Shown here: positions 2,677-62,181 of the stretch, piece by piece | How the letters are laid out: each line of letters opens with the position of its first letter | How positions within the stretch are numbered: position 1 is the first letter of the stretch | DNA from: Tragulus kanchil | Taxonomy: Eukaryota; Chordata; Mammalia; Artiodactyla; Tragulidae | Length of the DNA stretch: 64,000 bases | Reading direction: 5' to 3' | Assembly (NCBI GenBank): GCA_022376925.1 | Contig: JAIOJX010000002.1 | Span: 134,240,831-134,304,830 of the forward strand | Notes under the pieces: model-generated | Databases searched by the model: none | The model's input: only the letters and a program-made list of their open reading frames with translations | Told to the model about the DNA's origin: nothing | Translations under genes and position numbers: made by a program

Positions 2677-3102
2677 AATTTTAAGGTTTTTTCAGAGGAT
2701 TTCTGCTGGAACAGACTTTTTGATTGAAAGATGTTTGTCTGGTGTTTGTCTCCAGCTGATGGTGGGGGGAGCAGATAAAGCTCACTGAGTAGCTATTTTT
2801 TCTCAGACACTCTGGGGGAATATTTGTGCATAGAGAGAAATAGAGGAGAGGGAGGGATGGGTGGGTAGGAATCATCCTTTATAGCTGGTCTTCCCCCCGG
2901 TCTAGTGTTTCTCAAACTTTCCTAGCTGTCACTATCATCTGATTAAAAAGTTCAGGTTGTTTGGATCCATTAGAGAACTCCTGAGTCTCCAAGGAAATCT
3001 CTATCATTTGATATGTGATTCTGATGTTGGAGGTTCAAAGACTAAACTTTTAGAAATGCTGGCTCATAGGCTCTGGCTTCACACCTGCTCTGTGCCAGCG
3101 AC

Positions 3103-3312
3103 GCGTTGCTATTTACTTGCTAAGTTGTGTCTGGCTTTTTCGCAACCCCCGTGGTCTATGGTGGCTTCCCTGTCGACAGCATTTTCCAGGCAAGAATTCT
3201 GGAGTAGATGGCCATGTCCTCCTCCACGGGATCTTCCCTAACCAGGGATTGAACCTGCGTCTCTTACATTGCAGGCAGATTTATTTTACCACGGGCCCCC
3301 CTGGGAAGCCCA
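3103..3312 (-). mobile_element. Bov-tA SINE (duplication 1, copy 1)
   Basis: The minus strand shows the SINE head at the right (TGGGCTTCCCAGGGGGGCCC-like end near 3312) and a Bov-A tail at the left (GTTGTGTCTGGCTTTTTCGC). AAGAATTCTGGAGTAGATGG corresponds to the conserved middle block. A second copy at 4185-4394 belongs to the tandem duplication and is not an independent insertion. Confidence 0.8.
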
Positions 3313-4184
3313 CCAGTGATGAGTGCTCCTGAAGGGCCTGGGGGATTCCCCAGGCTCTACTTGCTGTTCTGGTTGGTGGGAAAGCAAACCAGCCGCACCT
3401 TTTCTCAGCCTGAGGCCCTCTGTATCTTGTCGAGCTCAGGAGGTTGGAGACCTTTGTCAGGCCGGAGGGTGGGGCATTCGTCTGGGCGCTGTGGTCTAAC
3501 CCGAGGAAACCACACCCGCCCCATCTCGAGTCTGACATTTTGGTGGATTGGTTCGGGGGCTGGGGGTGGGGGACGTGCCTGTTGACCCCAGCGGGGCTCC
3601 GTGCCCCGTGAGCAGCAGCTACCAAATGCTAGTGATTTGCTTGCCACCCTCAGCTCTGTTGCCACACGGTCTCCACACGCTGTGCCATTATTCACTTATT
3701 ATTTGACTATGAATCGACATGTTTAAAGATTTATGTATTTGAGCTTATAAAGGAAACTGCATATCGCTCCTGTAAATTTTAAGGTTTTTCAGAGGATTTG
3801 GGAAATTGAAAGATGTTTGTCTGGTGTTTGTCTCCAGCTGATGGTGGGGGGAGCAGATAAAGCTCACTGAGTAGCTATTTTTTCTCAGACACTCTGGGGG
3901 AATATTTGTGCATAGAGAGAAATAGAGGAGAGGGAGGGATGGGTGGGTAGGAATCATCCTTTATAGCTGGTCTTCCCCCCGGTCTAGTGTTTCTCAAACT
4001 TTCCTAGCTGTCACTATCATCTGATTAAAAAGTTCAGGTTGTTTGGATCCATTAGAGAACTCCTGAGTCTCCAAGGAAATCTCTATCATTTGATATGTGA
4101 TTCTGATGTTGGAGGTTCAAAGACTAAACTTTTAGAAATGCTGGCTCATAGGCTCTGGCTTCACACCTGCTCTGTGCCAGCGAC

Positions 4185-4394
4185 GCGTTGCTATTTACTT
4201 GCTAAGTTGTGTCTGGCTTTTTCGCAACCCCCGTGGTCTATGGTGGCTTCCCTGTCGACAGCATTTTCCAGGCAAGAATTCTGGAGTAGATGGCCATGTC
4301 CTCCTCCACGGGATCTTCCCTAACCAGGGATTGAACCTGCGTCTCTTACATTGCAGGCAGATTTATTTTACCACGGGCCCCCCTGGGAAGCCCA
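4185..4394 (-). mobile_element. Bov-tA SINE (duplication 1, copy 2)
   Basis: It matches the element at 3103-3312, offset by 1082 bases, including the same flanks. Two independent insertions would not share flanking sequence, so this copy arose by segment duplication or mis-assembly. Confidence 0.8.
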
Positions 4395-5084
4395 CCAGTG
4401 ATGAGTGCTCCTGAAGGGCCTGGGGGATTCCCCAGGCTCTACTTGCTGTTCTGGTTGGTGGGAAAGCAAACCAGCCGCACCTTTTCTCAGCCTGAGGCCC
4501 TCTGTATCTTGTCGAGCTCAGGAGGTTGGAGACCTTTGTCAGGCCGGAGGGTGGGGCATTCATCTGGGTGCTGTGGTATAAACCGACTGAACCTCACCCT
4601 CTCCATATCGACTCTGACAGTTTTGTGGATTTGTTCCTGGGGTGGGGGTGGGGGACGTGCCTGTTGACCCCAGCGGGGCTCCGTGCCCCGTGAGCAGCAG
4701 CTACCAAATGCTAGTGATTTGCTTGCCACCCTCAGCTCTGTTGCCACACGGTCTCCACACGCTGTGCCATTATTCACTTATTATTTGACTATGAATCGAC
4801 ATGTTTAAAGATTTATGTATTTGAGCTTATAAAGGAAACTGCATATCGCTCCTGTAAATTACCAACTGCCATAAACAAAATAACTAGACAAACACAATAT
4901 ACACAAAAGCACCAAAAAATTGTCAAAAAGGGAGATTAGCAAGCGTTCAAGAGTTGTAAAAACAAGCCTGCTTGAAACACAACTCCTCTGTGGTGATCTG
5001 AAGGATGGAGAAAAAGAACCAGCTTGTTGCTGATTGATTTGGGGTTATTAAAGCCATAGGGTCCCCTCTGAAAATCATTTTGGT

Positions 5085-5285
5085 CTTCCCAGGTGGTTCA
5101 GACAGGAAAGAATCTGCCTGCAGGGCAGGAGACCCAAGTTCAATCCCTGGGTTGGGAAGATCCCCTAGAGAAGGGAATGGCTCCCCACTCCAGTATGCTT
5201 GCCTGGAGAATTCTGTGGATAGAGGACCCTGGTGGGCTACAGTCCGGGAGATATCAAAGAGTCAGACATGACTGAGCAATTAACA
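5085..5285 (+). mobile_element. Bov-tA SINE
   Basis: It has a tRNA-Glu-like head (TCTTCCCAGGTGGTTCAGAC), a box-B-like AGTTCAATCCCTGGG, the GGGAAGATCCCC...CCACTCCAGTATGC middle and a Bov-A tail AAAGAGTCAGACATGACTGA. This complete layout is specific to ruminants. The short open frames here are SINE-derived. Confidence 0.9.
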
Positions 5286-5289
5286 CTAC

Positions 5290-6105
5290 TGCCACATGAA
5301 CAATGCATTTCCTAACAGGTCGGGATCCACTGAGTGAAGGAACTGGTAGGCAGTAGTCCTGGGTCCAGAGATTGTTTTGAAGGCAGCCATTGGTGGGCTG
5401 GGCATCCTGCTTCTCAGACTGGCCACTGGGCAGCTTGGGTTTGGTAGAGGTTGGCCACTCAATGACTCCACTCACCAGGTCAGATCAAGGAGCGGGGCGT
5501 TATGACAAATGATATGTCACCGAGCTGGAACTCCTTAGAGCAGCAGCCCTTTGCTGACATGTGTGTCCAGATCTGGTAAGATTGTGAACTTGGAAATGAG
5601 GCCTGTGAATTGGCTGCCTGTTCGACTCGAGACAGCAAGGTCCTCAAGAGAGGGGCTGGGGGGCCTGGTGCTTGGGATCCTCAGTCAAGAGGGGCCCCCC
5701 AGAGAGGTATGGGACAGACACTGAAGTTGACCTTTACTTGTTCCACCAGGGCTGTTGCTACCTGGATTTTTCTGGAAGAACTCATCTGCGTATCCTTGAA
5801 AATAAGATTGGACTTCCAAAAGCCCCTTCCCTGGCCGAGGTGACTGAACCTAGGGCAGCATGTGTAGGAGCCCTGGGGACCGGCACTTAAGCAGTTATGT
5901 TGTGCAAACCTAATTATGGCTAATCAAAAAAGCAATTAAGAATTCTGAACTTGACTCTCAAACACAATGGAAGGAAACTCTGGGTTATCCTGTGCCCCAC
6001 CCAGCCATCACCAATAAAACTCTTTTGATGTTTACAAGGCAAAATCAAACATTTTGATTCTTGGTTATATAGCTACCCTGAGAATTAGTGTGGTTCAGTA
6101 AAAAT
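5290..6105. other. Unclassified, probably unique sequence
   Basis: No convincing gene. Open frames of 73-77 codons on both strands lack family features. An AATAAA lies at 6013-6018 within CCAATAAAACTC, but with no upstream gene evidence it is not called as a polyadenylation site. Confidence 0.45.
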
Positions 6106-6773: not shown

Positions 6774-7012
6774 GATTCCTTAAAGCAAAAGCAGAATGCT
6801 GTTGCCAGAAGAGGGCTGTGTGCAGTCAACAGATAACTGTATACTAGTCAGATGATTATTATTATTTTTTTGGCTACAAACAGCAGAATTACCAACTCAC
6901 AGTGGCTTTGTTGACTTGTAGTTACAAGATGGCTGCTATGACTCTAGTCATCATACTGTCACAGGGAGAGTGTCCGGGACAGATGCACGGCTCAGGCAGC
7001 AAAAGTGAACTT

Positions 7013-7262
7013 CTTGGGCTTTCCTGGTGGTCCAGTGGGTAGAGAGTCCACCTTGCAGTGCAGAGGGCACCGGTTCAGTCCCCGGCCCAGGAGGATCCCA
7101 TGTGACACGGAGCAGCTGGACTGGTGTGTCCAATTTTCGGCCAGCGCTCTGGAGCACATGTGTCCAGATCTGGTGCTCCTCAATGAGAGAGGCCACTGCA
7201 GTGGGAGGCCCACATAGGCCAAAGAATGAAAAATGGATGAAAATAGGTATAAAAATAAAAAG
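7013..7262 (+). mobile_element. CHR-like SINE, dominant subfamily (duplication 2, copy 1)
   Basis: The CTTTCCTGGTGGTCCAGTGG head, box-B-like CGGTTCAGTCCCCGG, the GGACTGGTGTGTCCAATTTT block and the GAGAGGCCACTGCAGTGGGA block define the subfamily that dominates this window. It ends in ATGAAAAATGGATGAAAATA. It recurs at 8110-8357 only because of the segment duplication. Confidence 0.85.
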
Positions 7263-7324
7263 CATGGTAGGGGAAAATATTTTAAAAAATCTTCTTTCAT
7301 GTCTGTCTATTTTTCTTTAAAAAA

Positions 7325-7505
7325 ATCTATTTATTTATTTTTGGTTGCATTGGGTCTCCATTGTGGTGTGCAGGCTCAGTAGTTGTGGTCCACCAGCTTA
7401 CTTGCTCCCTGGCATGTGGGATCTTAGTTCCCCGACCAGGGATCAAACCTCAGTCCCCTGCATTGGAAGGTGAATTCTTAACCACTGAACTACCAGGGAA
7501 GTCCC
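7325..7505 (-). mobile_element. Short tRNA-Glu SINE (duplication 2, copy 1)
   Basis: In minus orientation it shows an ATTTATTTATTTTTGG tail at the left and the GGGAAGTCCC head at the right, with GACCAGGGATCAAACCTCAG as the inverse of box B. The repeat at 8420-8600 is the duplicated copy. Confidence 0.8.
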
Positions 7506-7769
7506 CATGTCTGTCTGTTTTGATAGTCTCCAAATGTAGATCCCCTCATAGGGATTTGTCATTGACCAAACAGAAAAATCTCTAACTGTAATGGACGTTG
7601 GAAAAGTCAATATCTGACATTTTTAGGCTTTATCATGGGACATGAGCTTTCCTAATAGTGATGAAAATAGAGAGAAATAATAGCTGGGTAGTCTATTATT
7701 CTAAATGTGACTGTGATAGTGGAAAACCCCTAAATGTTGATGGTTTAAGACGGTGTTTTTTGGGTTTTT

Positions 7770-7957
7770 TTTAAACATTTATTTATTTATTTTGGCAGGG
7801 GTGGGGAGGGAGGGGTGTGGATGGGCCACTTCCACTGGTCTTTCACTTCTCTAGTTTCATCCATCTTTGTTCTTTGGCCCATGTAGGCCTCCTATCGCCG
7901 CGGCATCTGTTGTCACAGAGCACCGGCTCTGGGTGCATGCGCTCCAGAGCTCTGGCT
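7770..7957 (-). mobile_element. Truncated CHR-like SINE at duplication 2 junction
   Basis: The 3' part of a minus-strand SINE with the G-rich 3' extension (7797-7825) is present, but it stops abruptly at 7957, where copy 2 of the duplication starts. The intact version is at 8853-9175. The truncation coincides exactly with the duplication junction. Confidence 0.85.
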
Positions 7958-8109
7958 CAGATGATTATTATTTGGCAAAACGCAATTACCAACTCACAGT
8001 GGCTTTGTTGACTTGTAGTTACAAGATGGCTTTTATGACTCTAGTCATCATACTGTCACAGGGAGAGTGTCCGGGACAGATGCACGGCTCAGGCAGCAAA
8101 AGTGAACTT

Positions 8110-8357
8110 CTTGGGCTTTCCTGGTGGTCCAGTGGGTAGAGTCCACCTTGCAGTGCAGAGGGCACCGGTTCAGTCCCCGGCCCAGGAGGATCCCATGTGA
8201 CACGGAGCAGCTGGACTGGTGTGTCCAATTTTCGGCCAGCGCTCTGGAGCACATGTGTCCAGATCTGGTGCTCCTCAATGAGAGAGGCCACTGCAGTGGG
8301 AGGCCCACATAGGCCAAAGAATGAAAAATGGATGAAAATAGGTATAAAAATAAAAAT
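8110..8357 (+). mobile_element. CHR-like SINE (duplication 2, copy 2)
   Basis: Duplicate of the element at 7013-7262. It differs by a 2-base deletion in GTGGGTAGAGTCC and a few substitutions. Confidence 0.85.
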
Positions 8358-8419
8358 CATGGTAGGGGAAAATATTTTAAAAAATCTTCTTTCATGTCTG
8401 TCTATTTTTCTTTAAAAAA

Positions 8420-8600
8420 ATCTATTTATTTATTTTTGGTTGCATTGGGTCTCCATTGTGGTGTGCAGGCTCAGTAGTTGTGGTCCACCAGCTTACTTGC
8501 TCCCTGGCATGTGGGATCTTAGTTCCCCGACCAGGGATCAAACCTCAGTCCCCTGCATTGGAAGGTGAATTCTTAACCACTGAACTACCAGGGAAGTCCC
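8420..8600 (-). mobile_element. Short tRNA-Glu SINE (duplication 2, copy 2)
   Basis: Duplicate of 7325-7505, offset by 1095 bases with identical flanks. Confidence 0.8.
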
Positions 8601-8852
8601 CATGTCTGTCTGTTTTGATAGTCTCCAAATGTAGATCCCCTCATAGGGATTTGTCATTGACCAAACAGAAAAATCTCTAACTGTAATGGACGTTGGAAAA
8701 GTCAATATCTGACATTTTTAGGCTTTATCATGGGACATGAGCTTTCCTAATAGTGATGAAAATAGAGAGAAATAATAGCTGGGTAGTCTATTATTCTAAA
8801 TGTGACTGTGATAGTGGAAAACCCCTAAATGTTGATGGTTTAAGACAGTGTT

Positions 8853-9175
8853 TTTTGGGTTTTTTTTAAACATTTATTTATTTATTTTGGCAGGGGTGGG
8901 GAGGGAGGGGTGTGGATGGGCCACTTCCACTGGTCTTTCACTTCTCTAGTTTCATCCATCTTTGTTCTTTGGCCCATGTAGGCCTCCTATCGCCGCGGCA
9001 TCTGTTGTCACAGAGCACCGGCTCTGGGTGCATGCGCTCCAGAGCTCTGGCTTGGCAACTGGACACATCGGTCCAGTCATTCCGCGGCACGCGGGATCCT
9101 CCCAAGCCAGGGATCGAACTGGCGCCCCTTGCACTGCAAGGCAGCATCCCTACCCACTGGACCACCAGGGAAGCC
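8853..9175 (-). mobile_element. Full-length CHR-like SINE with G-rich 3' extension
   Basis: The intact minus-strand element is flanked by the 14-bp direct repeat TTAAGACAGTGTTT (8839-8852 and 9176-9189). The left part carries the G-rich extension (8892-8920), then the GGCCACTTCCACTGGTC, TTCATCCATCTTTGTTC and GGCATCTGTTG blocks, and the head CCACCAGGGAAGCC at the right. The perfect long TSD implies a recent insertion. Confidence 0.93.
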
Positions 9176-9189: not shown

Positions 9190-9775
9190 ATTCCTTGTTT
9201 ACCCTGTGTGTTGTCAAGTGCAGGTCAGTATCCTTGGCTCCACATGCCTTCATGTTGCAGGAACCAGGCTAAAGGGGCAGCCCCTGTTGGGGCCAGGCCT
9301 TGTCTCAGAGGGAAAGCAAAAGAGCTGCAGGAAACACAGCTAAGTTTCTCTGTGGACTTACACTTGATGATGTTGTGTACCGGGAAAGGGCTCAGTGGGG
9401 CAATTCTTCTGCAGCTCGTGGCCACTCTGGTATTCAGTTGGCCACAGCGTGACCTGGAGGGTCTGACTTGGCTATACTCTTAGGTCTAGCGCCTTGGTAG
9501 GGATGCCTTGAAGGCTGGGCTCTCTGGCATGGGAGTGTGAGTGTGAGGGTTGTAGGCCTCCTCCATGGCAGTTCAGGGCTCCCAGGCACCGTGTCCCCAG
9601 AGACCGGAAGTGGAAAACCCTGGGCCTGGAAACATCACTTATGTCATAATGTATTAGACAAAGCAGTCACAGAGCCCACAAGAGGAGAGCAGGAGTTTTA
9701 AGGGATTTATGGCCTCTTTTACTTGTCACCTGTGGATTTAGGAACAGATGCCTAATCTTACAGGGAAGGGCAGTG
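9190..9775. other. Unclassified non-coding sequence
   Basis: No gene or RNA recognised. From 9564 onward it lies in tandem duplication 3. Confidence 0.4.
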
Positions 9776-9779
9776 GAGT

Positions 9780-10100
9780 TTTTTAAAAATAATTTGTTTA
9801 TTTTTGGCTGTGCTGGGTCTTCATCATTGCATGGGCTTTTCTCTAGTTGTGTCAAGCAGGGGCTACTCTCTAGTTTTGGGGAACAGGCTCCTCATTGCGG
9901 TGAAGTCTCCTGTTGCAGAGTCTGGGCTATGGAGCACGTGAACTTCAGTAGTTACCACATGTGGGTTGATACTGGAGCTGCAGGCTCTAGAGTCCAGGCT
10001 CTGCAGTTGTGGCTCATGGGCTTAGTTGTCCCTTGGCATGTGGCACCTTCCCGGATCAGAGATGGAACCTGTGTCTCCTGCATTGACAGCTGGCTTCTTT
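9780..10100 (-). mobile_element. CHR-2-like SINE (duplication 3, copy 1)
   Basis: A minus-strand element of the older, longer type: TTGTTTATTTTTGGCTGTGC at the left, GGGGCTACTCTCTAG and GCACGTGAACTTCAGTAG blocks, then GTGTCTCCTGCATTGACAG at the right. Its head is separated by later A/T-rich and SINE sequence. A duplicate lies at 10884-11204. Confidence 0.75.
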
Positions 10101-10149
10101 TTTTAAATTTTAATTAAAAAATTTTTTTAGCCAATTTAAAAAATTTCAT

Positions 10150-10490
10150 TATTTATTTATTTATTTATTTTTAAAGATTTATTTGTTTATTTTGGGTGGG
10201 GGTTGGGTTGGGGAGGGGGGGGGAGCGGGCGGGCCACTTCTATTGGTCTTGCATTTCTCCATTTTCATCCATCTTTGTTCTTTGGCTCCTGTGGGCCTCC
10301 CATCATGGTGGCCTCTGTTGCTGCAGAGCGCCGGCTCTGGGCGCATGCGCTCCAGAGCTCCGGCTCGGTAATTGGACACATCAGTCCAGCCGCTCTGCGG
10401 CACGTGGGATCTTCCCAGGCCAGGGATTGAAATGGCGCCCCCTGCATTGCAAGGCGGTGTCCTTATCCACTGGACCACCAGAGGAAGCCC
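10150..10490 (-). mobile_element. CHR-like SINE with G-rich extension (duplication 3, copy 1)
   Basis: The run from the TTTATTTATTTTTAAAG tail through the G-rich extension (10193-10230) and GGCCACTTCTATTGGTC to the CCACCAGAGGAAGCC head is the dominant subfamily in minus orientation. TCATTATTTATTT occurs on both sides and may be its target-site duplication. It is duplicated at 11255-11597. Confidence 0.88.
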
Positions 10491-10605
10491 TCATTATTTA
10501 TTTTCATCCATCTTTATTCTTTCGTATGTGTGTGGATCTCCCATTGCAGTGGCCTCTCGTGTTGCAGAGAGGTGGATTCTTTGCCACTGAGCCATCAAGG
10601 AAGCT
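10491..10605 (-). mobile_element. Internally deleted CHR-like SINE
   Basis: TTTTCATCCATCTTTATTC is followed by CCCATTGCAGTGGCCTCTCG, then jumps to a GATTCTTTGCCACTGAGCCA-like head, so the middle is missing. Duplicated at 11598-11712. Confidence 0.65.
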
Positions 10606-10883
10606 CAGGGAGTGGATAGTTTTAAAATGAATTTTAAGATGGACCTGACCTTAGCTCAGTGTAAGAACATGGCAGTTCAGGGCTCCCAGGCACCGTGTCC
10701 CCAGAGACCGGAAGTGGAAAACCCTGGGCCTGGAAACATCACTTATGTCATAATGTATTAGACAAAGCAGTCACAGAGCCCACAAGAGGAGAGCAGGAGT
10801 TTTAAGGGATTTATGGCCTCTTTTACTTGTCACCTGTGGATTTAGGAACAGATGCCTAATCTTACAGGGAAGGGCAGTGGAGT

Positions 10884-11204
10884 TTTTTAAAAATAATTTG
10901 TTTATTTTTGGCTGTGCTGGGTCTTCATCATTGCATGGGCTTTTCTCTAGTTGTGTCAAGCAGGGGCTACTCTCTAGTTTTGGGGAACAGGCTCCTCATT
11001 GCGGTGAAGTCTCCTGTTGCAGAGTCTGGGCTATGGAGCACGTGAACTTCAGTAGTTACCACATGTGGGTTGATACTGGAGCTGCAGGCTCTAGAGTCCA
11101 GGCTCTGCAGTTGTGGCTCATGGGCTTAGTTGTCCCTTGGCATGTGGCACCTTCCCGGATCAGAGATGGAACCTGTGTCTCCTGCATTGACAGCTGGCTT
11201 CTTT
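10884..11204 (-). mobile_element. CHR-2-like SINE (duplication 3, copy 2)
   Basis: Duplicate of 9780-10100, offset by 1104 bases. Confidence 0.75.
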
Positions 11205-11254
11205 TTTTTAATTTTTAATTAAAAAAAAATTTTTTTAGCCAATTTAAAAAATTT

Positions 11255-11597
11255 CATTATTTATTTATTTATTTATTTTTAAAGATTTATTTGTTTATTT
11301 TGGGTGGGGGTTGGGTTGGGGAGGGAGGGGAGCGGGCGGGCCACTTCTATTGGTCTTGCATTTCTCCATTTTCATCCATCTTTGTTCTTTGGCTCCTGTG
11401 GGCCTCCCATCATGGTGGCCTCTGTTGCTGCAGAGCGCCGGCTCTGGGCGCATGCGCTCCAGAGCTCCGGCTCGGTAATTGGACACATCAGTCCAGCCGC
11501 TCTGCGGCACGTGGGATCTTCCCAGGCCAGGGATTGAAATGGCGCCCCCTGCATTGCAAGGCGGTGTCCTTATCCACTGGACCACCAGAGGAAGCCC
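11255..11597 (-). mobile_element. CHR-like SINE with G-rich extension (duplication 3, copy 2)
   Basis: Duplicate of 10150-10490. The G-run in the extension differs in length between the copies, which is typical of consensus or sequencing noise in homopolymers. Confidence 0.88.
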
Positions 11598-11761
11598 TCA
11601 TTATTTATTTTCATCCATCTTTATTCTTTCGTATGTGTGTGGATCTCCCATTGCAGTGGCCTCTCGTGTTGCAGAGAGGTGGATTCTTTGCCACTGAGCC
11701 ATCAAGGAAGCTCAGGGAGTGGATAGTTTTAAAAATGAATTTTAAGATGGACCTGACCTTA

Positions 11762-13231: not shown

Positions 13232-13500
13232 TGAGCTTCCCTGGTGGTCCAGTGGGTAAAGAGTCCACCTTGCAGTGCAAGAGACACCAGTTTGATCCTT
13301 GGCCTGGGAAGATCCCACGTGCCACAGAGTGGCTGGACCAGTATGTTCAGTCACGAGCCTGTGCTCTGGAGCTCATGCGCCCAGAGTGGGTGCTCTGCGA
13401 CGAGAGAGAGGCCACTATGATGGGAGGCCCACAAATGCCAACGAATAAAGATGGATGAAAAATAAATGATGACTTACAGGCAAAAAAAAAAAAAGAGAGA
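13232..13500 (+). mobile_element. CHR-like SINE, array copy 1
   Basis: It has the CTTCCCTGGTGGTCCAGTGG head, the GGACCAGTATGTTCAGTCAC middle and an A-rich tail followed by (GA)n. It is the first of three head-to-tail SINEs. Confidence 0.88.
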
Positions 13501-13882
13501 GAGAGAATGAGGGCTTCCCTGGTGGTCCAGCGGGTAAGGAGTCCTCCTTGCAGTGAAAGAGACACCGGTTCGATCCCTGGACTGGGAAGATCCCACGTGC
13601 TGCAGAGTGGCTGGACCAGTATGTTCAGTCACGAGCCTGTGCTCTGGAGCTCATGCGCCCAGAGTGGGTGCTCTGCGACGAGAGAGAGGCCACTATGATG
13701 GGAGGCCCACAAATGCCAACGAATAAAGATGGATGAAAAATAAATGATGACTTACAGGCAAAAAAAAAAAAAGAGAGAGAGAGAATGAGGGCTTCCCTGG
13801 TGGTCCAGCGGGTAAGGAGTCCTCCTTGCAGTGAAAGAGACACCGGTTCGATCCCTGGACTGGGAAGATCCCACGTGCTATG
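13327..13882 (+). repeat. 278-bp tandem duplication within the SINE array
   Basis: The segment 13327-13604 (SINE body, A-tail, (GA)n and the head of the next SINE) repeats at 13605-13882. Both breakpoints fall at the same place in the SINE, at GAGTGGCTGGACCAG. That is what unequal recombination between two neighbouring SINEs would give. It differs from the ~1.1-kb duplications in size and in having homologous breakpoints. Confidence 0.85.
13510..13780 (+). mobile_element. CHR-like SINE, array copy 2
   Basis: This is a hybrid: its head matches array copy 3 and its body matches copy 1, as expected for the middle element after unequal crossing-over. Confidence 0.85.
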
Positions 13883-14040
13883 GAGCAGCTGGACCAGTGT
13901 GTCCAATTATAAGCCAGCACTCTGGAGCGCCTGCGCCCAGAGCCGATGGTCTGCAACAAGAGAGGCCACTGCAGTGGGAGGCCCTAACAGCCCAAGGAGT
14001 AAATATGGATGAAAATAAATAAATAAAAAAACAATAAAAG
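13788..14040 (+). mobile_element. CHR-like SINE, array copy 3
   Basis: The same head as copy 2 is followed by a different body (CAATTATAAGCCAGCACTCT, GAGCCGATGGTCTGC) and an AATAAATAAATAAAAA tail. Confidence 0.87.
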
Positions 14041-16068: not shown

Positions 16069-16504
16069 CCGTGGGAAACTTTTAAAAATAGAGATACTTG
16101 GGCTTCATTATAGACCTCCTACAATAAAAGCTAGAGAGGTAAGACCAGGAATTTTGTATATATATATTTTTGGGAAATAGATTTGCCTTCGGGAGATAGA
16201 GACTGTGAATAATAATGGCCCAAACAAAATAGGCACTATTTCTGTCTCACATAAAAGTCAAAGATGTGCTGGATGTCTGTTAGGTGGCCAGAATCCTTCC
16301 ACATTGTTGCTCTGCCATTGTTCGAAAGCTGCTGTCCACTACCTGGGCCGTGACGGTACACCCCCGTGTCTTCTGCACTCCAGCCAATGGGAAGAGAGGA
16401 AAGGTGAACAGGTAGGGCTTGCCCTTTCCCACTGCAGTGTACTTCTGGGAAGCTGTGTGCATTACTTCCCCTCAAATCCACGAGCCAGTGCTTAGTCTTC
16501 TTCT

Positions 16505-16816
16505 TCTTTTTTTATCTTGGCCTCCTTTATTGGTTTTCTACTCATTTATTTTCATCCATCTTTATTCCTCGGCCTGCCCATGCAGTGGGCATGTGCCCAT
16601 CTTTGACTTTTATTCCTCGGCCTCCCATCACAGTGGCCTCCCTCACTGCAAAGCATCAGTTCTGGTCACACGTGCTCCAGAGCGCTGGCTCACAACTGGA
16701 CACACTGGTCCAACTGTGCCGTGGCACATGGAATTCTCCCGGGCCAGGGATCGAACCAGTGCCCTTGGCACTGCAAGGTGGACTCTTTACCCACTGGACC
16801 ACCAGGGAAGCCCAGA
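16505..16816 (-). mobile_element. CHR-like SINE (duplication 4, copy 1)
   Basis: A minus-strand element with TTTTCATCCATCTTTATTCC, then an internal ~50-base repeat in which TTTATTCCTCGGCCT occurs twice (near 16561 and 16609), and the head CCACCAGGGAAGCCC. Duplicated at 17603-17914. Confidence 0.85.
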
Positions 16817-17069
16817 ACTTAGTCTTCTTAAATGCATTTGAGGATGGTCAAATGCATAACTAAAATTTCTGATGTTTAGAAGAGGAGAATGAATCTGAGA
16901 GAGAACTGTGTGTTTTATCTACTAAAGTGTATTTTAAAACTCAACTTCCCAGAATATCATTTCTGATGGTCATCAGGGTTTGGAAGTACTGGAAGCATCT
17001 GTAAGCTTTCCCAACCAGAAGTATCTCCTTCTGATGGTCTTCACCTAAGAACATGGCCTCCTTAAATAT

Positions 17070-17150
17070 AAACAGTGTTTATATTTCTGAGTCTAACAGT
17101 TGCCGAGCACATAGTAGATGCTCAATAGGCTTTTGTCAAAGAAATTGAAT
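17070..17150 (+). mobile_element. MIR 3' end relic (duplication 4, copy 1)
   Basis: CGAGCACATAGTAGATGCTC followed by AATAGGCTTTTGTCAAAG corresponds to the conserved MIR tail. Duplicated near 18170-18250. Confidence 0.65.
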
Positions 17151-17284
17151 GGGGAGTTCCCATATCCCATGGGCATAATATAGATTTTAAGGTTTATTTT
17201 TCAGTGATTACCAAAGTTTTCTAATGTCTATATCACTCTAAACTGTAACATTTCATTAGGCATGTCATTTGTACTAATTATAGT

Positions 17285-17436
17285 GAGGCTATGGAAAGAA
17301 CCCGCCTGCAATGCAGGAGACACCAGAGACACCGGTTCAATCCCTGGATTGGAAAGACCCCTGTAGGAGGTGATGGCAGCCCATTCCAGTATTCTTGCCT
17401 GGAAAACCCCATGGACAGAGGCTCTAAGCCTTTCAT
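17285..17436 (+). mobile_element. Bov-tA fragment (first of three copies)
   Basis: AACCCGCCTGCAATGCAGG, a box-B-like CGGTTCAATCCCTGG, and CCATTCCAGTATTCTTGCC identify a Bov-tA lacking its start. The same sequence appears at 18385-18536 and 19555-19706 because duplications 4 and 5 overlap here. Confidence 0.8.
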
Positions 17437-17602
17437 GCGGTGAACAGGCCGTGACGGTACACCCCGTGTCTTCTGCACTCCAGCCAATGGGAAGAGGAAA
17501 GGTGAACAGGTAGGGCTTGCCCTTTCCCACTGCAGTGTACTTCTGGGAAGCTGTGTGCATTACTTCCCCTCAAATCCACGAGCCAGTGCTTAGTCTTCTT
17601 CT

Positions 17603-51272: not shown

Positions 51273-51589
51273 ATCCCAAATGAAGTATCTTATGCCAAGC
51301 CCATATCACTAAACCAAGACTGATTGCATGTTTGACACTCCCAGAAATGGAATTTTATCACAGTCAATCAGATATTGCCTGTTTAGCTTGCCCGGCAGAC
51401 TCCAGACATCTCCTGTAAGGAAAATAACATTGGTCTACTTTTTGCCTAGTGCAACTTCCTTGTTTCTGCTCCCTTCTGCCCACAAAATCTCTGGCCTTGT
51501 CTAGTTCTTCAGAGCTCCTTTCCATCTGCTAGACTGAATACTGCTTGATTCATGATTTATTGAGTTGAATTTTATTTTTTACAATGGAT

Positions 51590-52260
51590 ATCAAGAATAA
51601 GATGAAAGATTCTTAGACTGAGAAGCTACAAGATTATAAGATCTAAGATTCGAGAGAGGTGGGAAAAGTAGGGCATCTTTGTGCAGACTGTCTCTTGTTT
51701 GGTTGTTAGAACCTGTACTGAAGCAGGGGATGGATGGGCTCCAGACTGAGCAGCTGTAGTTTCTCCCTTGTGGACATATGCTCCATAATAACAGGAGAGA
51801 GGAGCTGAGCCCTGGCCGGGTAAGAGGTAAAAGACCACTTATTCCTCATTCTCAAAGACAAGGAGACCTTGCCATCTGTACAGGTGCAGAAAGGCTCCTT
51901 GGAGGTCAAACAGGGAGGGGGCATCCCCTTACAGGAAGTGAAGTCAACCTACCCATAAGCCTCTTTGCTGGATACCATCTTGGTTAAGAGATGTGTACGC
52001 ACATAGTGGAGGACCTTGAGATAAAAGTAATATGGACTGAGATTCAAGCAAGAATCTTGCTGAGAAAAGCAAGATGATTAGCTGAAGGAAACCCAGAAGA
52101 AATGCCCCATAGAAGGGATTCTAACTACAACAAGGGTGCAACTCTGAATCTACCCATGTGTTTATCCACATCTTCTCTTTTTTCCACCCGAGATCAGTAC
52201 CAACTTCTGTGCTGATCTGAGCCCACCATTGCTTTTTGACTTTAAGGTCTACTTCAAAAG
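51590..52260 (+). mobile_element. LTR family A relative (duplication 12, copy 1)
   Basis: GGAGCTGAGCCCTGGCCGGG, CAAGGAGACCTTGCCATCTG, GAAGTCAACCTACCCATAAG, GAAGAAATGCCCCATAG and ATTCTAACTACAACAAGGG follow family A, but it diverges after about 52190 and lacks the tRNA-Glu-like segment. Duplicated at 52670-53340. Confidence 0.65.
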
Positions 52261-52669
52261 GACACTTTTTTTTTTTTTTTTATAACTCTGGGAAAACTGG
52301 GAGATCAGGCAGGTTTTGGGATAAGGATTGAAGGAATAAAATACCTCCAAACCCCATACTAGATTTGCAATCAAGCTGAAACTCTCGGTCCCTCAGGGCT
52401 TGTTATTCGCAAGAAAGAAACCAAAAAAGAAGTTATTTGTAAGAAAAAAGGTTGTTTGTTAAGAAACAAAGTACCTAGATTTTGCCCGGCAGACTCAGAC
52501 ATCTCCTGTAAGGAAAATAACATTGGTCTATTTTTCCTTGTTTTCCTGCTCCCTTCTGCCCACAAAATCTCTGGCCTTGTCTAGTTCTTCAGAGCTCCTT
52601 TCCATCTGCTAGACTGAATACTGCTTGATTCATGATTTATTGAGTTGAATTTTATTTTTTACAATGGAT

Positions 52670-53340
52670 ATCAAGAATAAGATGAAAGATTCTTAGACTG
52701 AGAAGCTACAAGATTATAAGATCTAAGATTCGAGAGAGGTGGGAAAAGTAGGGCATCTTTGTGCAGACTGTCTCTTGTTTGGTTGTTAGAACCTGTACTG
52801 AAGCAGGGGATGGATGGGCTCCAGACTGAGCAGCTGTAGTTTCTCCCTTGTGGACATATGCTCCATAATAACAGGAGAGAGGAGCTGAGCCCTGGCCGGG
52901 TAAGAGGTAAAAGACCACTTATTCCTCATTCTCAAAGACAAGGAGACCTTGCCATCTGTACAGGTGCAGAAAGGCTCCTTGGAGGTCAAACAGGGAGGGG
53001 GCATCCCCTTACAGGAAGTGAAGTCAACCTACCCATAAGCCTCTTTGCTGGATACCATCTTGGTTAAGAGATGTGTACGCACATAGTGGAGGACCTTGAG
53101 ATAAAAGTAATATGGACTGAGATTCAAGCAAGAATCTTGCTGAGAAAAGCAAGATGATTAGCTGAAGGAAACCCAGAAGAAATGCCCCATAGAAGGGATT
53201 CTAACTACAACAAGGGTGCAACTCTGAATCTACCCATGTGTTTATCCACATCTTCTCTTTTTTCCACCCGAGATCAGTACCAACTTCTGTGCTGATCTGA
53301 GCCCACCATTGCTTTTTGACTTTAAGGTCTACTTCAAAAG
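52670..53340 (+). mobile_element. LTR family A relative (duplication 12, copy 2)
   Basis: Duplicate of 51590-52260 at an offset of 1080 bases. Confidence 0.65.
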
Positions 53341-53869
53341 GACACTTTTTTTTTTTTTTTTATAACTCTGGGAAAACTGGGAGATCAGGCAGGTTTTGGG
53401 ATAAGGATTGAAGGAATAAAATACCTCCAAACCCCATACTAGATTTGCAATCAAGCTGAAACTCTCGGTCCCTCAGGGCTTGTTATTCGCAAGAAAGAAA
53501 CCAAAAAAGAAGTTATTTGTAAGAAAAAAGGTTGTTTGTAAGAAACAAAGACCTAGATTTGCATTTGAATGAGGTGCCAATCAGTGTTCATTAGCGGGAA
53601 TACAACGCCATTAGCAGGAAGGTAGCTTTGGCAATCTGCTCTTTAGTTTTGTAGATTCAAACAAGTATTCTAAAAGATGTTCTGTGTCTGATGAGATCCA
53701 GTGGCATCAATGTTTCCCACTGTTTCTCCCCAGGGAAAAGCAAGGTTCAGCAGGGAAAATTGTAGTCTCCTTATCCTCCTTTCTCACTCACACATGCCTC
53801 AAGGCTCTTCTGTACTTTCAGGTTGTCAAAACTTTGAAGGACTGGAGGTGCTTCTTGAGGAGAACATTC

Positions 53870-54394: not shown

Positions 54395-54725
54395 TGTTAC
54401 CAAGTCCAAGCTCACTCTGTTCACCGCATGACAGGCCAACAAATCCAACAGACAAGGTGTTGAGGTAAGGAAAAAGACTATTTGGGAAACAGTTGTCTGA
54501 GAAGATGGTAGGTTAGTGCCTCAAAATAACCATCTTTGTTGGGCTCTGGATGCCAGGTTCTTTCATAGATCAGAGATGGGGGAAGGTGAGGAAGCAAAGC
54601 AAAATAGCCATTGATCTTGCAAACATCTCCTAGAATGGCAAGCCTCAGGCAGAGGATGTGTTCATTTCTCCCTTCCTGCCATCTACAGGTGGACAGGGTT
54701 CTGAACAAAGACACTTTAGGTTATA
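54395..54725 (-). mobile_element. ERV LTR fragment, family B (minus strand)
   Basis: On the minus strand the order is CTGTCCACCTGTAGATGGC, TGAGGCTTGCCATTCTAGG, CTTTGTTGGTTATTTTGAGG-type text, then CTTACCTCAACACC and CTGTTGGATTTG, parallel to 29980-30510 and 32610-32690. The 54492-54725 part is repeated at 55572-55805 by duplication 13. Confidence 0.65.
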
Positions 54726-56641
54726 GTCAAGCAGAGAGGCAGGATCCTAAAGGCAAGCCATTAACTATGGTTATAAAAACAAAAGCAACAAAAAGCAAGT
54801 CAAAGAAACAGTTTGCAGCACGGTGTCTGAGTCCACCATCTCCCAGGATTGCTGGCATTCTCACTGAAAGCATCTTTCCTTTCTACCAACATGGCTCCCT
54901 CCCTCCCTTCTCTCTCCCACTTTCTCTCCTATGGGTTTTCAAGCAGCAAACATCCAGACCTCAGGTAACAGAAGTGAGCGATTAACCCGGTCCCAGGCAC
55001 TCTCTGTAAAGGGAAACTCCTGAGCCGCTAGGCATTAGGGGACCTCTCGGGACCAAAGCAGGCACAGGGGAGCTCTACCGCACAGACGCTGCTAGCCCAG
55101 GTGGTAGAATTACACGACCCTAGGTTCAAATTCCAGCCTTTCCACCAGCCTCCTAGAGTGATTCTTGGGCACATTAATGTTTGAGAACTTCTGTGCCAGC
55201 CTGCTTTCCTGTCTCTGACTGTCTATGCTTGACCTCAGGAGCTTGTACTTCAGGAAGGAGGGCACATCTCAACGTGAGAGCGACACCCAGGAGCTGAGTG
55301 TAATGAAAATTTAGTTTGTCATGAAAAGGAAACAAGCATTTCCTTTTCCTTTTTTGTGACAGAACTTCCTTTTAAAATGTTTCATCCTTCAGGTACCCTC
55401 TGTAGCTCATGTCATCTTGTTCTTCGTGGGCCACCGGTGGTCTCTGTCCCCAGGCAGTGGTATAATTGGTCTAAACAAACCATGCTTTCCTATTCCCTTT
55501 CCTTATTGGTGGGCTTCGGGTTGGGGCCATGAGGCATTTCGGACCAAGGAGATGTGAATGGGAAAAACAGGGTTGTCTGAGAAGATGGTAGGTTAGTGCC
55601 TCAAAATAACCATCTTTGTTGGGCTCTGGATGCCAGGTTCTTTCATAGATCAGAGATGGGGGAAGGTGAGGAAGCAAAGCAAAATAGCCATTGATCTTGC
55701 AAACATCTCCTAGAATGGCAAGCCTCAGGCAGAGGATGTGTTCATTTCTCCCTTCCTGCCATCTACAGGTGGACAGGGTTCTGAACAAAGACACTTTAGG
55801 TTATAGTCAAGCAGAGAGGCAGGATCCTAAAGGCAAGCCATTAACTATGGTTATAAAAACAAAAGCAACAAAAAGCAAGTCAAAGAAACAGTTTGCAGCA
55901 CGGTGTCTGAGTCCACCATCTCCCAGGATTGCTGGCATTCTCACTGAAAGCATCTTTCCTTTCTACCAACATGGCTCCCTCCCTCCCTTCTCTCTCCCAC
56001 TTTCTCTCCTATGGGTTTTCAAGCAGCAAACATCCAGACCTCAGGTAACAGAAGTGAGCGATTAACCCGGTCCCAGGCACTCTCTGTAAAGGGAAACTCC
56101 TGAGCCGCTAGGCATTAGGGGACCTCTCGGGACCAAAGCAGGCACAGGGGAGCTCTACCGCACAGACGCTGCTAGCCCAGGTGGTAGAATTACACGACCC
56201 TAGGTTCAAATTCCAGCCTTTCCACCAGCCTCCTAGAGTGATTCTTGGGCACATTAATGTTTGAGAACTTCTGTGCCAGCCTGCTTTCCTGTCTCTGACT
56301 GTCTATGCTTGACCTCAGGAGCTTGTACTTCAGGAAGGAGGGCACATCTCAACGTGAGAGCGACACCCAGGAGCTGAGTGTAATGAAAATTTAGTTTGTC
56401 ATGAAAAGGAAACAAGCATTTCCTTTTCCTTTTTTGTGACAGAACTTCCTTTTAAAATGTTTCATCCTTCAGGTACCCTCTGTAGCTCATGTCATCTTGT
56501 TCTTCGTGGGCCACCGGTGGTCTCTGTCCCCAGGCAGTGGTATAATTGGTCTAAACAAACCATGCTTTCCTATTCCCTTTCCTTATTGGTGGGCTTCGGG
56601 TTGGGGCCATGAGGCATTTCGGACCAAGGAGATGTGAATGG
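54492..56641 (+). repeat. Tandem duplication 13 (1080-bp period)
   Basis: Copy 1 is 54492-55561 and copy 2 55572-56641 with about 10 unmatched bases between. All landmarks checked are offset by exactly 1080 bases and I noticed no internal difference. Confidence 0.95.
54730..55560. other. Unclassified sequence inside duplication 13
   Basis: Possibly the upstream part of the minus-strand LTR family B element, then unique sequence. A 124-codon open frame at 54611-54985 (repeated at 55691-56065) has no domain and overlaps the LTR fragment. No gene is called. Confidence 0.4.
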
Positions 56642-57385: not shown

Positions 57386-58009
57386 CCATCTCCCAGAATC
57401 GTTCTTGCTGGCATTCATCTTGGCTGAGCCGTACATGCACCACCAGGAAGGACTCTTGCATTGGAATGATTGGCCAAAACCACCTGGAAACTAATTCCAT
57501 TATCGTAAAATCTGAGACTGCGAGCTACATGGCAGAGCAGTCCTCCTGGATTTCCTCACCTTCCTGCTCTCCACCCGGTGCCCCTTCCCAAAAGGGTCTC
57601 CTGCTGGTCAGCACATGTGTCTCCTCGGACAAGCCATTTTCAAGTGTTAGACAAGAGCCCACTTGAGAGCCCTGGTAAGGGTCCTCCTTCCTGCACAGAA
57701 AGAAGCTGGGCTTTACTGATGCCACACAAATGCTGAATCAATCAGTTCTGTGGAATTGGTCAGTTCTGTGGCTGTCATTTTATTAGGTGAGATAATTACA
57801 TCCTAAAGACAGATCCATTGGTAGGTGTCTTGCTATTGAAAGTTTCTTTAAAAAGAGAAATTGGAGATGTGCACTCTGGAGGCCTGAGGAAGGAGGCCCT
57901 GGGAGGCGGAGAGCTGGAGACCAAAACAGAAAGTCTAGGCACTAGACGGTATCTCTAAGAAGAGGACCGAGGAGTGGTATGACCTTTCTACCACAGAGGA
58001 GTGGCTGAA

Positions 58010-58215
58010 ATGGAATCAGGGTGCCTGGATTCAAAGGCCAGGTCCACCCCTTATCTTACCCTGTCACCTTGGGCCAGTTACATAACCTCAGTTTCCTCAT
58101 CTGTAAAACAGACTCATAATAGTACTATGGAACAGGATTTGAAAATGTTAAATTAGGAACCTGAAGTCCCTAGCCCATGGTAAGTATGACATAAGTATGA
58201 ATGATGAGGTGATGA
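58010..58215 (+). mobile_element. MIR relic (duplication 14, copy 1)
   Basis: GTGCCTGGATTCAAAGGCC, CCTTGGGCCAGTTACATAAC, CTCAGTTTCCTCATCTGTAA and the end around GGTAAGTATGACATAAG form a well-preserved sense MIR. Duplicated at 59061-59266. Confidence 0.92.
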
Positions 58216-59060
58216 ATCTTTGACAATTAGTTTTGTGTTTTTTTCCTTTATATGGTTAAATTTCCCTTTGTAAGAAATTAACTTTTATTTTGAAATAATT
58301 ACAGATTTATACGCAGTTTTAAGTAAAAATTCTTAGATTCCATGTACAAGGTACCCTGTTTCTCCTGATGGTAACACTGTACAACAGTCTTGTACAACAT
58401 CACAATATGGCCATAGTTACAGTGAGGCAAAAATTCCCATCTCCCAGAATCGTTCTTGCTGGCATTCATCTTGGCTGAGCCGTACATGCACCACCAGGAA
58501 GGACTCTTGCATTGGAATGATTGGCCAAAACCACCTGGAAACTAATTCCATTATCGTAAAATCTGAGACTGCGAGCTACATGGCAGAGCAGTCCTCCTGG
58601 ATTTCCTCACCTTCCTGCTCTCCACCCGGTGCCCCTTCCCAAAAGGGTCTCCTGCTGGTCAGCACATGTGTCTCCTCGGACAAGCCATTTTCAAGTGTTA
58701 GACAAGAGCCCACTTGAGAGCCCTGGTAAGGGTCCTCCTTCCTGCACAGAAAGAAGCTGGGCTTTACTGATGCCACACAAATGCTGAATCAATCAGTTCT
58801 GTGGAATTGGTCAGTTCTGTGGCTGTCATTTTATTAGGTGAGATAATTACATCCTAAAGACAGATCCATTGGTAGGTGTCTTGCTATTGAAAGTTTCTTT
58901 AAAAAGAGAAATTGGAGATGTGCACTCTGGAGGCCTGAGGAAGGAGGCCCTGGGAGGCGGAGAGCTGGAGACCAAAACAGAAAGTCTAGGCACTAGACGG
59001 TATCTCTAAGAAGAGGACCGAGGAGTGGTATGACCTTTCTACCACAGAGGAGTGGCTGAA

Positions 59061-59266
59061 ATGGAATCAGGGTGCCTGGATTCAAAGGCCAGGTCCACCC
59101 CTTATCTTACCCTGTCACCTTGGGCCAGTTACATAACCTCAGTTTCCTCATCTGTAAAACAGACTCATAATAGTACTATGGAACAGGATTTGAAAATGTT
59201 AAATTAGGAACCTGAAGTCCCTAGCCCATGGTAAGTATGACATAAGTATGAATGATGAGGTGATGA
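59061..59266 (+). mobile_element. MIR relic (duplication 14, copy 2)
   Basis: Duplicate of 58010-58215 at an offset of 1051 bases. Confidence 0.92.
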
Positions 59267-59494
59267 ATCTTTGACAATTAGTTTTGTGTTTTTTTCCTTT
59301 ATATGGTTAAATTTCCCTTTGTAAGAAATTAACTTTTATTTTGAAATAATTACAGATTTATACGCAGTTTTAAGTAAAAATTCTTAGATTCCATGTACAA
59401 GGTACCCTGTTTCTCCTGATGGTAACACTGTACAACAGTCTTGTACAACATCACAATATGGCCATAGTTACAGTGAGGACACAAACATTCCCAT

Positions 59495-60660
59495 GACTAA
59501 AGAGTTCTCTCATTACTCTTTTATTTCCACACCCACTTTCTCTTTACCTCTCTTCTTAATCTCTAGTAACCACTAATTTGTTCCCTGTTTCTATGATTTT
59601 TGTCATTTTAAGAATCATTTAGTATGTAGACTTCGGGTTTGACTTTTTTTTTCCACTCGGCTTCTCTGAAGATTCAAAGACGCTATTGAATGGATCAAGA
59701 GTTTGTTCCTTTTTACAGCTGAATGGTATTCCATGATGTGGGTACTCTATGGTTTGTTTAGCCATTTAACCAGTGAAAGACATTTGGGTTGTTTCCAATT
59801 TGGGGCTATTACAAATAAAGCTGTTGTAAATATTCATATAGAAATGTTTGTGTGAACATAAATTTTCATTTCTCTGGAATGGATGCCCAAGATCACAATT
59901 GCTGGGGTCGTAAAGCAGTTGCATTTTTAGGTTGGGTTTTTTTTTTTTTTTTAAAGAAACTGCAAAATTGTTTTCCAGAATGGCTATAACATTCTACATT
60001 CTCACTAGAGATGTTTCATCTTTGCCAACATTTGGTGTTGTCATTACTTTTTATTTCAGTTATTTTGCTAAGTGTGAGGTGATATCTTAGTATGGCCTTA
60101 ATTTGCATTTTCCTCTTTCCATGTGCTTATTTGCCATCTGTATCTCCTCTTCAGTAAAATGGCTCTGCATATCTTTCATCCATTTTCTAATTGGATTGTT
60201 TGTGAGTTTTGCTATTGTTGAGCTTTGAGAGTTCTTTGTGTAGTTTGTATTTATTTTTGGCTCTGCTGGGTCTTCATTGCTGCGTGCACATTTTTCGAGC
60301 TGCTGTGTGCAGGCTTCTCATTGCAGTGGCTTCTCTTGTTGCAGAGCACGGGCTCTAGGGTGATTGGGCTTCAGCAGTTGTGGCACATGGGCTCAGTCGT
60401 TGTGGCTCCCTGGGCCCTAGAGTGCAAACTTGGTAGTTGTGGCACAAGGGCTTAGTTGCTCCACAGCATGTGGGATCTCTCAGGATCTGGAATTGAACCG
60501 GTGTCGCCTACATTGACAGGCAGATTCTTTACTACTGAGTCACCAGGGAAGCCTAAGATATCTTTAGGTATTTTAGATATTAATATTTTGTTGGATATGG
60601 GTTGGCAATTTTCATTCTTTTAACAAAGTCTTAAAATCTTACTCAAATATTTCAGAGGCA
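59495..60660 (-). mobile_element. Old L1 fragment interrupted by a SINE
   Basis: TAACCACTAATTTGTTCCC, AGCTGAATGGTATTCCATG, GACATTTGGGTTGTTTCC and TTAATTTGCATTTTCC are the antisense of an old L1 3' region. It is interrupted by a SINE at 60240-60557 and continues with ATATTTTGTTGGATATGGG. Part of it (from 59987) repeats at 61083 because of duplication 15. Confidence 0.85.
60240..60557 (-). mobile_element. CHR-2-like SINE (duplication 15, copy 1)
   Basis: TTTATTTTTGGCTCTGCTGG through GGGCTCTAGGGTGATTGG and GCATGTGGGATCTCTCAGG to CACCAGGGAAGCC. It is inserted in L1. Duplicated at 61336-61653. Confidence 0.85.
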
Positions 60661-60667
60661 GATAATT

Positions 60668-60875
60668 CTTTTTTATTTATTTATTTTCATCCATCTTTAT
60701 TCTTGAGCCTGTGTGGGCCTCGCATCGCAGTGGCCTTTCTCGTTGAGAGCACTGGCTCTGGGCACATGCGCTCCAGAGCGCTGACTGGTAACTGGACACA
60801 TTGGTCCAGCTTCTCTGCTGCCTATGGGATCTTTCCAGGCCAGGGATCGAACCAGTGCCCCAGGGAAGCCCAGCA
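60668..60875 (-). mobile_element. CHR-like SINE with short head deletion (duplication 15, copy 1)
   Basis: TTTATTTATTTATTTTCATC, GGGCCTCGCATCGCAGTGG, CTCCAGAGCGCTGACTGG, then CAGTGCCCCAGGGAAGCCC, where the usual ~45 bases between box B and head are missing. CAGATAATTCTT flanks it (near 60659 and 60885) as a probable TSD. Duplicated at 61764-61972. Confidence 0.87.
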
Positions 60876-61335
60876 GCAGATAATTCTTGAAGGAGAAGGG
60901 AGGAAGCTGGCACTTAGGTGTTAGATAATAAGCACTTAATAAATAGCATGTTTCCATAGTAATAAATGTGAGCTAGGGATGCAGGGTAGGAAGGGAGAGT
61001 GGAGTGAAGGAAGACTTTTGGGTCCCCTCACCCTGGCCCACATGACCCCAAAGTGGAAATTATCCTTAGTGAAAGTTCCTTTTAACATTCTACATTCTCA
61101 CTAGAGATGTTTCATCTTTGCCAACATTTGGTGTTGTCATTACTTTTTATTTCAGTTATTTTGCTAAGTGTGAGGTGATATCTTAGTATGGCCTTAATTT
61201 GCATTTTCCTCTTTCCATGTGCTTATTTGCCATCTGTATCTCCTCTTCAGTAAAATGGCTCTGCATATCTTTCATCCATTTTCTAATTGGATTGTTTGTG
61301 AGTTTTGCTATTGTTGAGCTTTGAGAGTTCTTTGT

Positions 61336-61653
61336 GTAGTTTGTATTTATTTTTGGCTCTGCTGGGTCTTCATTGCTGCGTGCACATTTTTCGAGCTGCT
61401 GTGTGCAGGCTTCTCATTGCAGTGGCTTCTCTTGTTGCAGAGCACGGGCTCTAGGGTGATTGGGCTTCAGCAGTTGTGGCACATGGGCTCAGTCGTTGTG
61501 GCTCCCTGGGCCCTAGAGTGCAAACTTGGTAGTTGTGGCACAAGGGCTTAGTTGCTCCACAGCATGTGGGATCTCTCAGGATCTGGAATTGAACCGGTGT
61601 CGCCTACATTGACAGGCAGATTCTTTACTACTGAGTCACCAGGGAAGCCTAAG
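61336..61653 (-). mobile_element. CHR-2-like SINE (duplication 15, copy 2)
   Basis: Duplicate of 60240-60557. Confidence 0.85.
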
Positions 61654-61763
61654 ATATCTTTAGGTATTTTAGATATTAATATTTTGTTGGATATGGGTTG
61701 GCAATTTTCATTCTTTTAACAAAGTCTTAAAATCTTACTCAAATATTTCAGAGGCAGATAATT

Positions 61764-61972
61764 CTTTTTTATTTATTTATTTTCATCCATCTTTATTCTT
61801 GAGCCTGTGTGGGCCTCGCATCGCAGTGGCCTTTCTCGTTGCAGAGCACTGGCTCTGGGCACATGAGCTCCAGAGCGCTGACTGGTAACTGGACACATTG
61901 GTCCAGCTTCTCTGCTGCCTATGGGATCTTTCCAGGCCAGGGATCGAACCAGTGCCCCAGGGAAGCCCAGCA
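61764..61972 (-). mobile_element. CHR-like SINE (duplication 15, copy 2)
   Basis: Duplicate of 60668-60875 with the same head deletion and the same flanking CAGATAATTCTT. Confidence 0.87.
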
Positions 61973-62181
61973 GCAGATAATTCTTGAAGGAGAAGGGAGG
62001 AAGCTGGCACTTAGGTGTTAGATAATAAGCACTTAATAAATAGCATGTTTCCATAGTAATAAATGTGAGCTAGGGATGCAGGGTAGGAAGGGAGAGTGGA
62101 GTGAAGGAAGACTTTTGGGTCCCCTCACCCTGGCCCACATGACCCCAAAGTGGAAATTATCCTTAGTGAAAGTTCCCTTTT

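Follow-up and report, generated by a model that had tools for sequence, protein, structure and literature searches.

Duplicated overlapping contigs (DOCs) were described in cow, chimpanzee, chicken and dog by Kelley and Salzberg in 2010, and duplications lying within contigs are set aside in the accessible part of that article as rarely mis-assembled (PMC2864568). Here we analyse a 64-kb stretch of the Tragulus kanchil assembly (C31:134,240,831–134,304,830, hereafter the window), in which an original prediction had reported 15 adjacent direct duplications of about 1.1 kb. In DOCs, adjoining pieces have overlapping ends and both copies of the overlap are retained in the chromosome sequence (PMC2864568), and the present pairs show a comparable arrangement, with near-identical facing ends in all 15 window pairs and in 47 complete pairs among the 51 detected overall. 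Unlike DOCs, which lie between separate contigs, are discussed as divergent haplotypes and reach mis-assembled totals of 7.9 kb (dog) to 13.7 Mb (chimpanzee) in the part of the article available (PMC2864568), these pairs lie inside gap-free sequence, fall in one narrow length class and account for ~23–33% of the sampled bases. Since their joins run within continuous sequence and not between separate contigs, they are akin to DOCs but are not DOCs as defined.

A second framework, that of the Vertebrate Genomes Project (VGP; Ko et al. 2022), separates heterotype from homotype false duplications, which reach as much as 16% of an older assembly (PMC9516828). As portrayed in the available portion of that work, the homotype class resembles the present pairs in being under-collapsed, free of allelic differences and tied to read errors; of its hallmarks, which include very low read depth and gaps between copies (PMC9516828), the gaps are absent here, the window being without any N. 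False duplication is not mentioned in the searched text of a study of segmental duplications in 117 vertebrates (PMC13431229).

Judged from the sequence, the duplications are most probably an assembly artefact, pieces with overlapping ends having been written consecutively with the overlap kept, a reading to which we assign a probability of about 0.88; that an assembly artefact of one kind or another is responsible we hold to be nearly certain. The contig would then be a chain of consensus pieces, 1.7–7.3 kb long among 34 measured, each of which would share with its successor a single fixed graph unit of ~1.1 kb. With this overlap neither aligned nor collapsed, the pieces would have been written head to tail and the overlap printed twice, or thrice where overlaps themselves overlap. 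The original prediction had likewise proposed that ends overlapping by ~1.1 kb were joined unmerged, and its proposal is supported by the polarity of end errors, the single period class and the recurrence of the pairs across the genome.

Arrangement of the duplicated pairs

Tandem pairs were recovered by k-mer self-comparison and local alignment in the window, its flanks and loci elsewhere in the assembly, and pair boundaries and difference counts were taken from a stricter alignment scoring. All 15 head-to-tail pairs were found in the window, with periods of 1051–1170 bp that agree within a few bases with those first reported, and every junction originally listed falls within, or a few bases from, a junction zone found by alignment. 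Their summed periods amount to 16.5 kb, or 26% of the window. A sixteenth pair starts at 62,999 and has its second copy outside; it is seen when the window is joined to its contiguous right flank, whereas the 3 kb adjoining the window on the left showed no additional pair. The pairs, in window numbering, are as follows.

2676–4860, unstranded: pair 1, copy 1 at 2676–3778 and copy 2 at 3774–4860; the junction shares 5 bp
6848–9052, unstranded: pair 2, copy 1 at 6848–7957 and copy 2 at 7957–9052
9564–11761, unstranded: pair 3, copy 1 at 9564–10653 and copy 2 at 10668–11761; 14 unmatched bases separate the copies
16346–18536, unstranded: pair 4, copy 1 at 16346–17436 and copy 2 at 17447–18536; 10 unmatched bases separate the copies
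18347–20672, unstranded: pair 5, copy 1 at 18347–19500 and copy 2 at 19517–20672; 16 unmatched bases separate the copies
20986–23176, unstranded: pair 6, copy 1 at 20986–22081 and copy 2 at 22081–23176; the copies are identical
25823–28099, unstranded: pair 7, copy 1 at 25823–26963 and copy 2 at 26969–28099; 5 unmatched bases separate the copies
29980–32168, unstranded: pair 8, copy 1 at 29980–31074 and copy 2 at 31071–32168; the junction shares 4 bp
35381–37584, unstranded: pair 9, copy 1 at 35381–36485 and copy 2 at 36481–37584
37518–39697, unstranded: pair 10, copy 1 at 37518–38604 and copy 2 at 38605–39697
44834–47011, unstranded: pair 11, copy 1 at 44834–45905 and copy 2 at 45940–47011; 34 unmatched bases separate the copies
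51388–53560, unstranded: pair 12, copy 1 at 51388–52482 and copy 2 at 52482–53560
54487–56641, unstranded: pair 13, copy 1 at 54487–55561 and copy 2 at 55565–56641; 3 unmatched bases separate the copies
57386–59494, unstranded: pair 14, copy 1 at 57386–58440 and copy 2 at 58437–59494; the junction shares 4 bp
59987–62183, unstranded: pair 15, copy 1 at 59987–61085 and copy 2 at 61083–62183; the junction shares 3 bp
62999–64000, unstranded: pair 16, copy 1 at 62999–64086 and copy 2 at 64105–65194, continuing beyond the window in locus L020

The overlap has a fixed length. A search of the window and 12 ten-kb loci (the 3-kb loci L001–L008 being excluded from all counts) for periods of 250–6000 bp gave 52 tandem pairs, 51 of which had a period of 1000–1200 bp, bearing out the earlier claim of one length whatever the content. 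Over the 47 complete pairs, four of the 51 having been omitted as partial or cut by a locus edge, the period was 1101 ± 31 bp (range 1024–1170). The sole tandem pair of other period is a 278-bp array in the window (13235–14020), in which a SINE-like unit of that length recurs in 2.8 head-to-tail copies at ~90% match and which may be real.

Copies abut or overlap, by 0–17 bp, in 24 of the 47 complete pairs, and 3–119 unmatched bases lie between them in the remaining 23. Breakpoints had been described as sharing no sequence, which holds in that no common motif was found but not at the level of single junctions, where the copies overlap by at least 3 bp in 16 of 47 pairs. Eleven of these overlaps are exact and five contain mismatches, against 6% exact for random breakpoints, a comparison that is not quite like-for-like because the alignment tolerates mismatches. 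A joiner taking short chance matches between ends may account for the excess.

Neighbouring complete units overlap in 10 of 34 cases, by 49–426 bp, as pieces with a fixed-length overlap would do wherever the step from piece to piece is shorter than the overlap; this, too, fits the original prediction of unmerged ends. In the window, the final 190 bp of pair 4 copy 2 form the start of pair 5 and the final 67 bp of pair 9 copy 2 form the start of pair 10, and both stretches are present three times. The same holds for the shared stretch in 10 of 10 overlapping cases, but threefold stretches follow necessarily from the overlap of neighbouring pairs and provide no separate test, and overlapping real duplications would also produce them. 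Within the threefold stretch in L020 (window numbering 64048, 65155 and 66262), the middle copy departs from the other two, which match each other, at one substitution and a nearby indel, perhaps reflecting two alleles carried by different pieces.

Differences between copies and their polarity

The copies had been called nearly identical, a description that suits their interiors, with 73 differences in 41,982 bases over the 47 pairs; differences are most frequent near the ends, with 111 in the 9,400 bases that lie within 100 bp of either unit end. The difference rate is 21–22 per kb within 25 bp of the unit ends, compared with 0.4–1.5 per kb at 100–200 bp; at 200–400 bp inward it is 1.5 per kb from the unit start and 3.2 per kb from the unit end. 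Interior substitutions are absent in 31 of the 47 pairs and total 39, 18 of which form a single cluster in pair 1 (3480–3560, with its counterpart at 4562–4642), spanning 80 bp in interiors that are otherwise near-identical. One copy of pair 1 may have been polished with reads from a paralogue at this position.

Indels at the unit ends are strongly directional. Over the first 100 bp of the unit, bases are missing from copy 2 in 44 cases and from copy 1 in five, whereas over the last 100 bp they are missing from copy 2 in four cases and from copy 1 in 35 (Fisher p = 9e-15); the unit middle is near balance, with 20 cases in copy 2 and 14 in copy 1. Counted by pair, net missing bases fall on the piece-end side in 30, on the opposite side in four and on neither in 13. 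In pairs 1 and 12, copy 2 is missing 16 bases of copy 1 at its start, and in pair 12 it also has two extra there. Opposite directions at the two sides would not arise from edge bias in the local alignment.

Because the two faces of each junction are the start of copy 2 and the end of copy 1, both behave as noisy, base-poor piece ends, whereas their counterparts resemble well-read interiors. Errors are thus polarized towards piece ends, and the ratios of 44:5 at starts and 4:35 at ends place the copy ends at piece ends, as in DOCs. The consensus would be poor and short of bases where a piece ends, as might be expected with deletion-prone nanopore reads.

Recurrence across the assembly and its scale

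The assembly comprises 3,167,203,957 bases in 32 contigs, of which 16 exceed 70 Mb. Eleven ten-kb loci on 11 contigs (L009–L019, 110 kb) contained 33 pairs, ~1 per 3.3 kb, and the duplicated share averaged 33% of bases (95% bootstrap interval 28–37%). SINE sequences similar to Bov-tA suggest a ruminant. Among the first 100 places listed for a 17-base SINE word, all of which are on contig C1, 23 of 99 adjacent spacings were 1076–1258 bp, against 1.1 expected if placement were random.

Homeobox matches form at least 44 same-strand pairs at spacings of 1013–1203 bp, and in 35 of these the two bit scores are equal. Of the 150 scored rows, 85 belong to a pair; the number of pairs is a lower bound because 150 of 439 candidates were scored. 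Each of the 16 chromosome-scale contigs carries such pairs, so that the pattern extends well beyond the window. Four Hox-like clusters (32 rows), for example at C27:60.94–61.08 Mb and C15:274.5–274.6 Mb, hold 11 of the 44; not all pairs are independent, as some lie in regions with several neighbouring homeoboxes.

False extra DNA appears to make up between about one quarter and one third of the assembly, judging from duplicated shares of 26% in the window, ~23% from SINE pairs and ~33% in the 11 loci. Removal of 23–33% would leave a true genome of ~2.1–2.4 Gb. By extrapolation, gap-free sequence would harbour ~0.65–0.95 million false 1.1-kb pairs, produced by a long-read consensus failure mode in which graph neighbours are written in full and which is undescribed in the literature searched; we put this broader proposal at somewhat under an even chance.

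The interest of these observations is practical and not biological, as the pairs would represent no real feature of the genome. If the assembly were used unchanged, many exons, including Hox-like homeoboxes, would appear twice, misleading gene models, counts of tandem and segmental duplications, gene-family sizes and read-depth analyses. The combination of one length near 1.0–1.2 kb, deletions polarized to piece ends and overlapping units constitutes a fingerprint that offers a cheap, read-free test for any assembly and should reveal the same fault in other public assemblies.

Competing explanations and the possible source of the pieces

Among the alternatives, a gap filler or scaffolder that pasted in fill still bearing ~1 kb of anchoring flank survives best, although we consider it unlikely. 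It shares with the unmerged-piece reading the expectation of ~1-kb repeats at joins and of joins recurring genome-wide, but it requires a draft broken every ~3 kb across 3 Gb, sits poorly with piece-end errors on both sides of the joins and, because neighbouring units overlap (10 of 34 cases), would need the fills to overlap each other.

Parental alleles set side by side (haplotype or heterotype false duplication) would be expected to differ along the length of the copies, and such spread differences were not observed: most pairs are free of interior substitution, and nearly half of the interior substitutions sit in the single cluster of pair 1. Under this explanation a single fixed length is not predicted, nor is it predicted that errors should run in opposite directions at the start and end of the unit. 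Even though it is a common cause of false duplications, according to the available text of PMC9516828, and a few interior differences, such as those of the L020 units, could be allelic, we regard it as very improbable.

Real tandem duplication by a biological process (template switching or end joining, for example) that leaves short homology or inserts bases where ends are joined has in our estimate a negligible chance, since pairs that are direct and adjacent, junction overlaps of at least 3 bp or unmatched bases such as those observed, and threefold stretches where duplications overlap would all be compatible with it, but one length whatever the content at such a density, homeobox matches doubled on every chromosome-scale contig and in Hox-like clusters, an end-error direction that has no biological reason and the scarcity of interior substitutions speak against it; the remarkable duplication process that the original prediction had left open therefore finds no apparent support in the sequence.

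The artefact of unmerged overlapping pieces raises the question of the software involved. In wtdbg2, consecutive layout units have one vertex of four 256-bp bins in common, and its consensus program has an option for overlap. The repeated unit may be a vertex of this type (1024 bp of read), with neighbours left unmerged by the consensus step, and we give wtdbg2-type units about an even chance of being the source. Redbean (wtdbg2) cuts reads to 1024-bp segments that are merged into vertices, and its assemblies were oversized with mediocre simulated reads, according to the available text of a benchmarking study (PMC7730629). These vertices are close in size to the overlap found here, and contigs are output as overlapping read sequence with consensus by wtpoa-cns; in contrast to the present case, the portion of PMC6966772 at hand mentions duplication only at circular contig ends (PMC7730629, PMC12037172, PMC6966772). 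In a deletion-prone nanopore read, 1024 bp would span slightly more than that length of genome, in keeping with an overlap of 1.10 kb. Unmerged output of this kind is not described in the searched portions of the literature, including PMC7730629, PMC12037172, PMC7483855 and PMC6966772.

Several observations weigh against the unmerged-piece reading or its attribution to wtdbg2. Of 12 stretches of 4 kb, each beginning 50 kb into its contig, four contained a 1.07–1.16-kb pair, two a tandem of other period and six none; eight of the stretches lie in small contigs, and a full pair needs ~2.2 kb, so that short stretches miss some. The usual ruminant genome size is 2.6–2.8 Gb, above the ~2.1–2.4 Gb left after removal of the duplicated share, and either sequence is also missing from the assembly or the sampled regions are rich in pairs. 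The difference rate is raised, at 3.2 per kb, 200–400 bp from the unit end, mostly owing to the pair 1 cluster. Junction filler resembled a damaged continuation of the piece in four of 19 cases tested (z > 2; mean z 1.2), the fillers of 3, 4, 5 and 119 bases among the 23 having been dropped. The attribution to wtdbg2 is indirect, resting on size and error pattern. With real reads, Redbean genome sizes did not differ significantly from those of references in the accessible part of PMC7730629, and the homeobox spacings reach down to 1013 bp, so that 1024 is no floor. A 256-bp grain in piece spacing gave Rayleigh p values of 0.009–0.085 at the preset unit across 12 cuts, uncorrected, and 0.09–0.11 with the unit left free, and is only suggestive.

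Two variants of the fixed unit were rejected. A 275-bp grain (256 × 1.07) was not supported (p 0.019–0.69), nor was an overlap of constant homopolymer-compressed length, for which compressed lengths ranged from 742 to 947 in an alignment judged too loose.

Other tandem repeats and assembly features were encountered alongside the pairs. A minisatellite at 32343–32536 of the window has a 50-bp unit in 3.9 copies at ~80% match. Small contigs carry satellite-like tandem units, of 692 bp in L031 (C29:50001–54000, 24% G+C) and of 364 bp in L021 (C19:50001–54000). Contigs C14, C16 and C25 measure exactly 200,000, 242,000 and 225,000 bases, as would result from Hi-C scaffolders that place their cuts at round-number positions.

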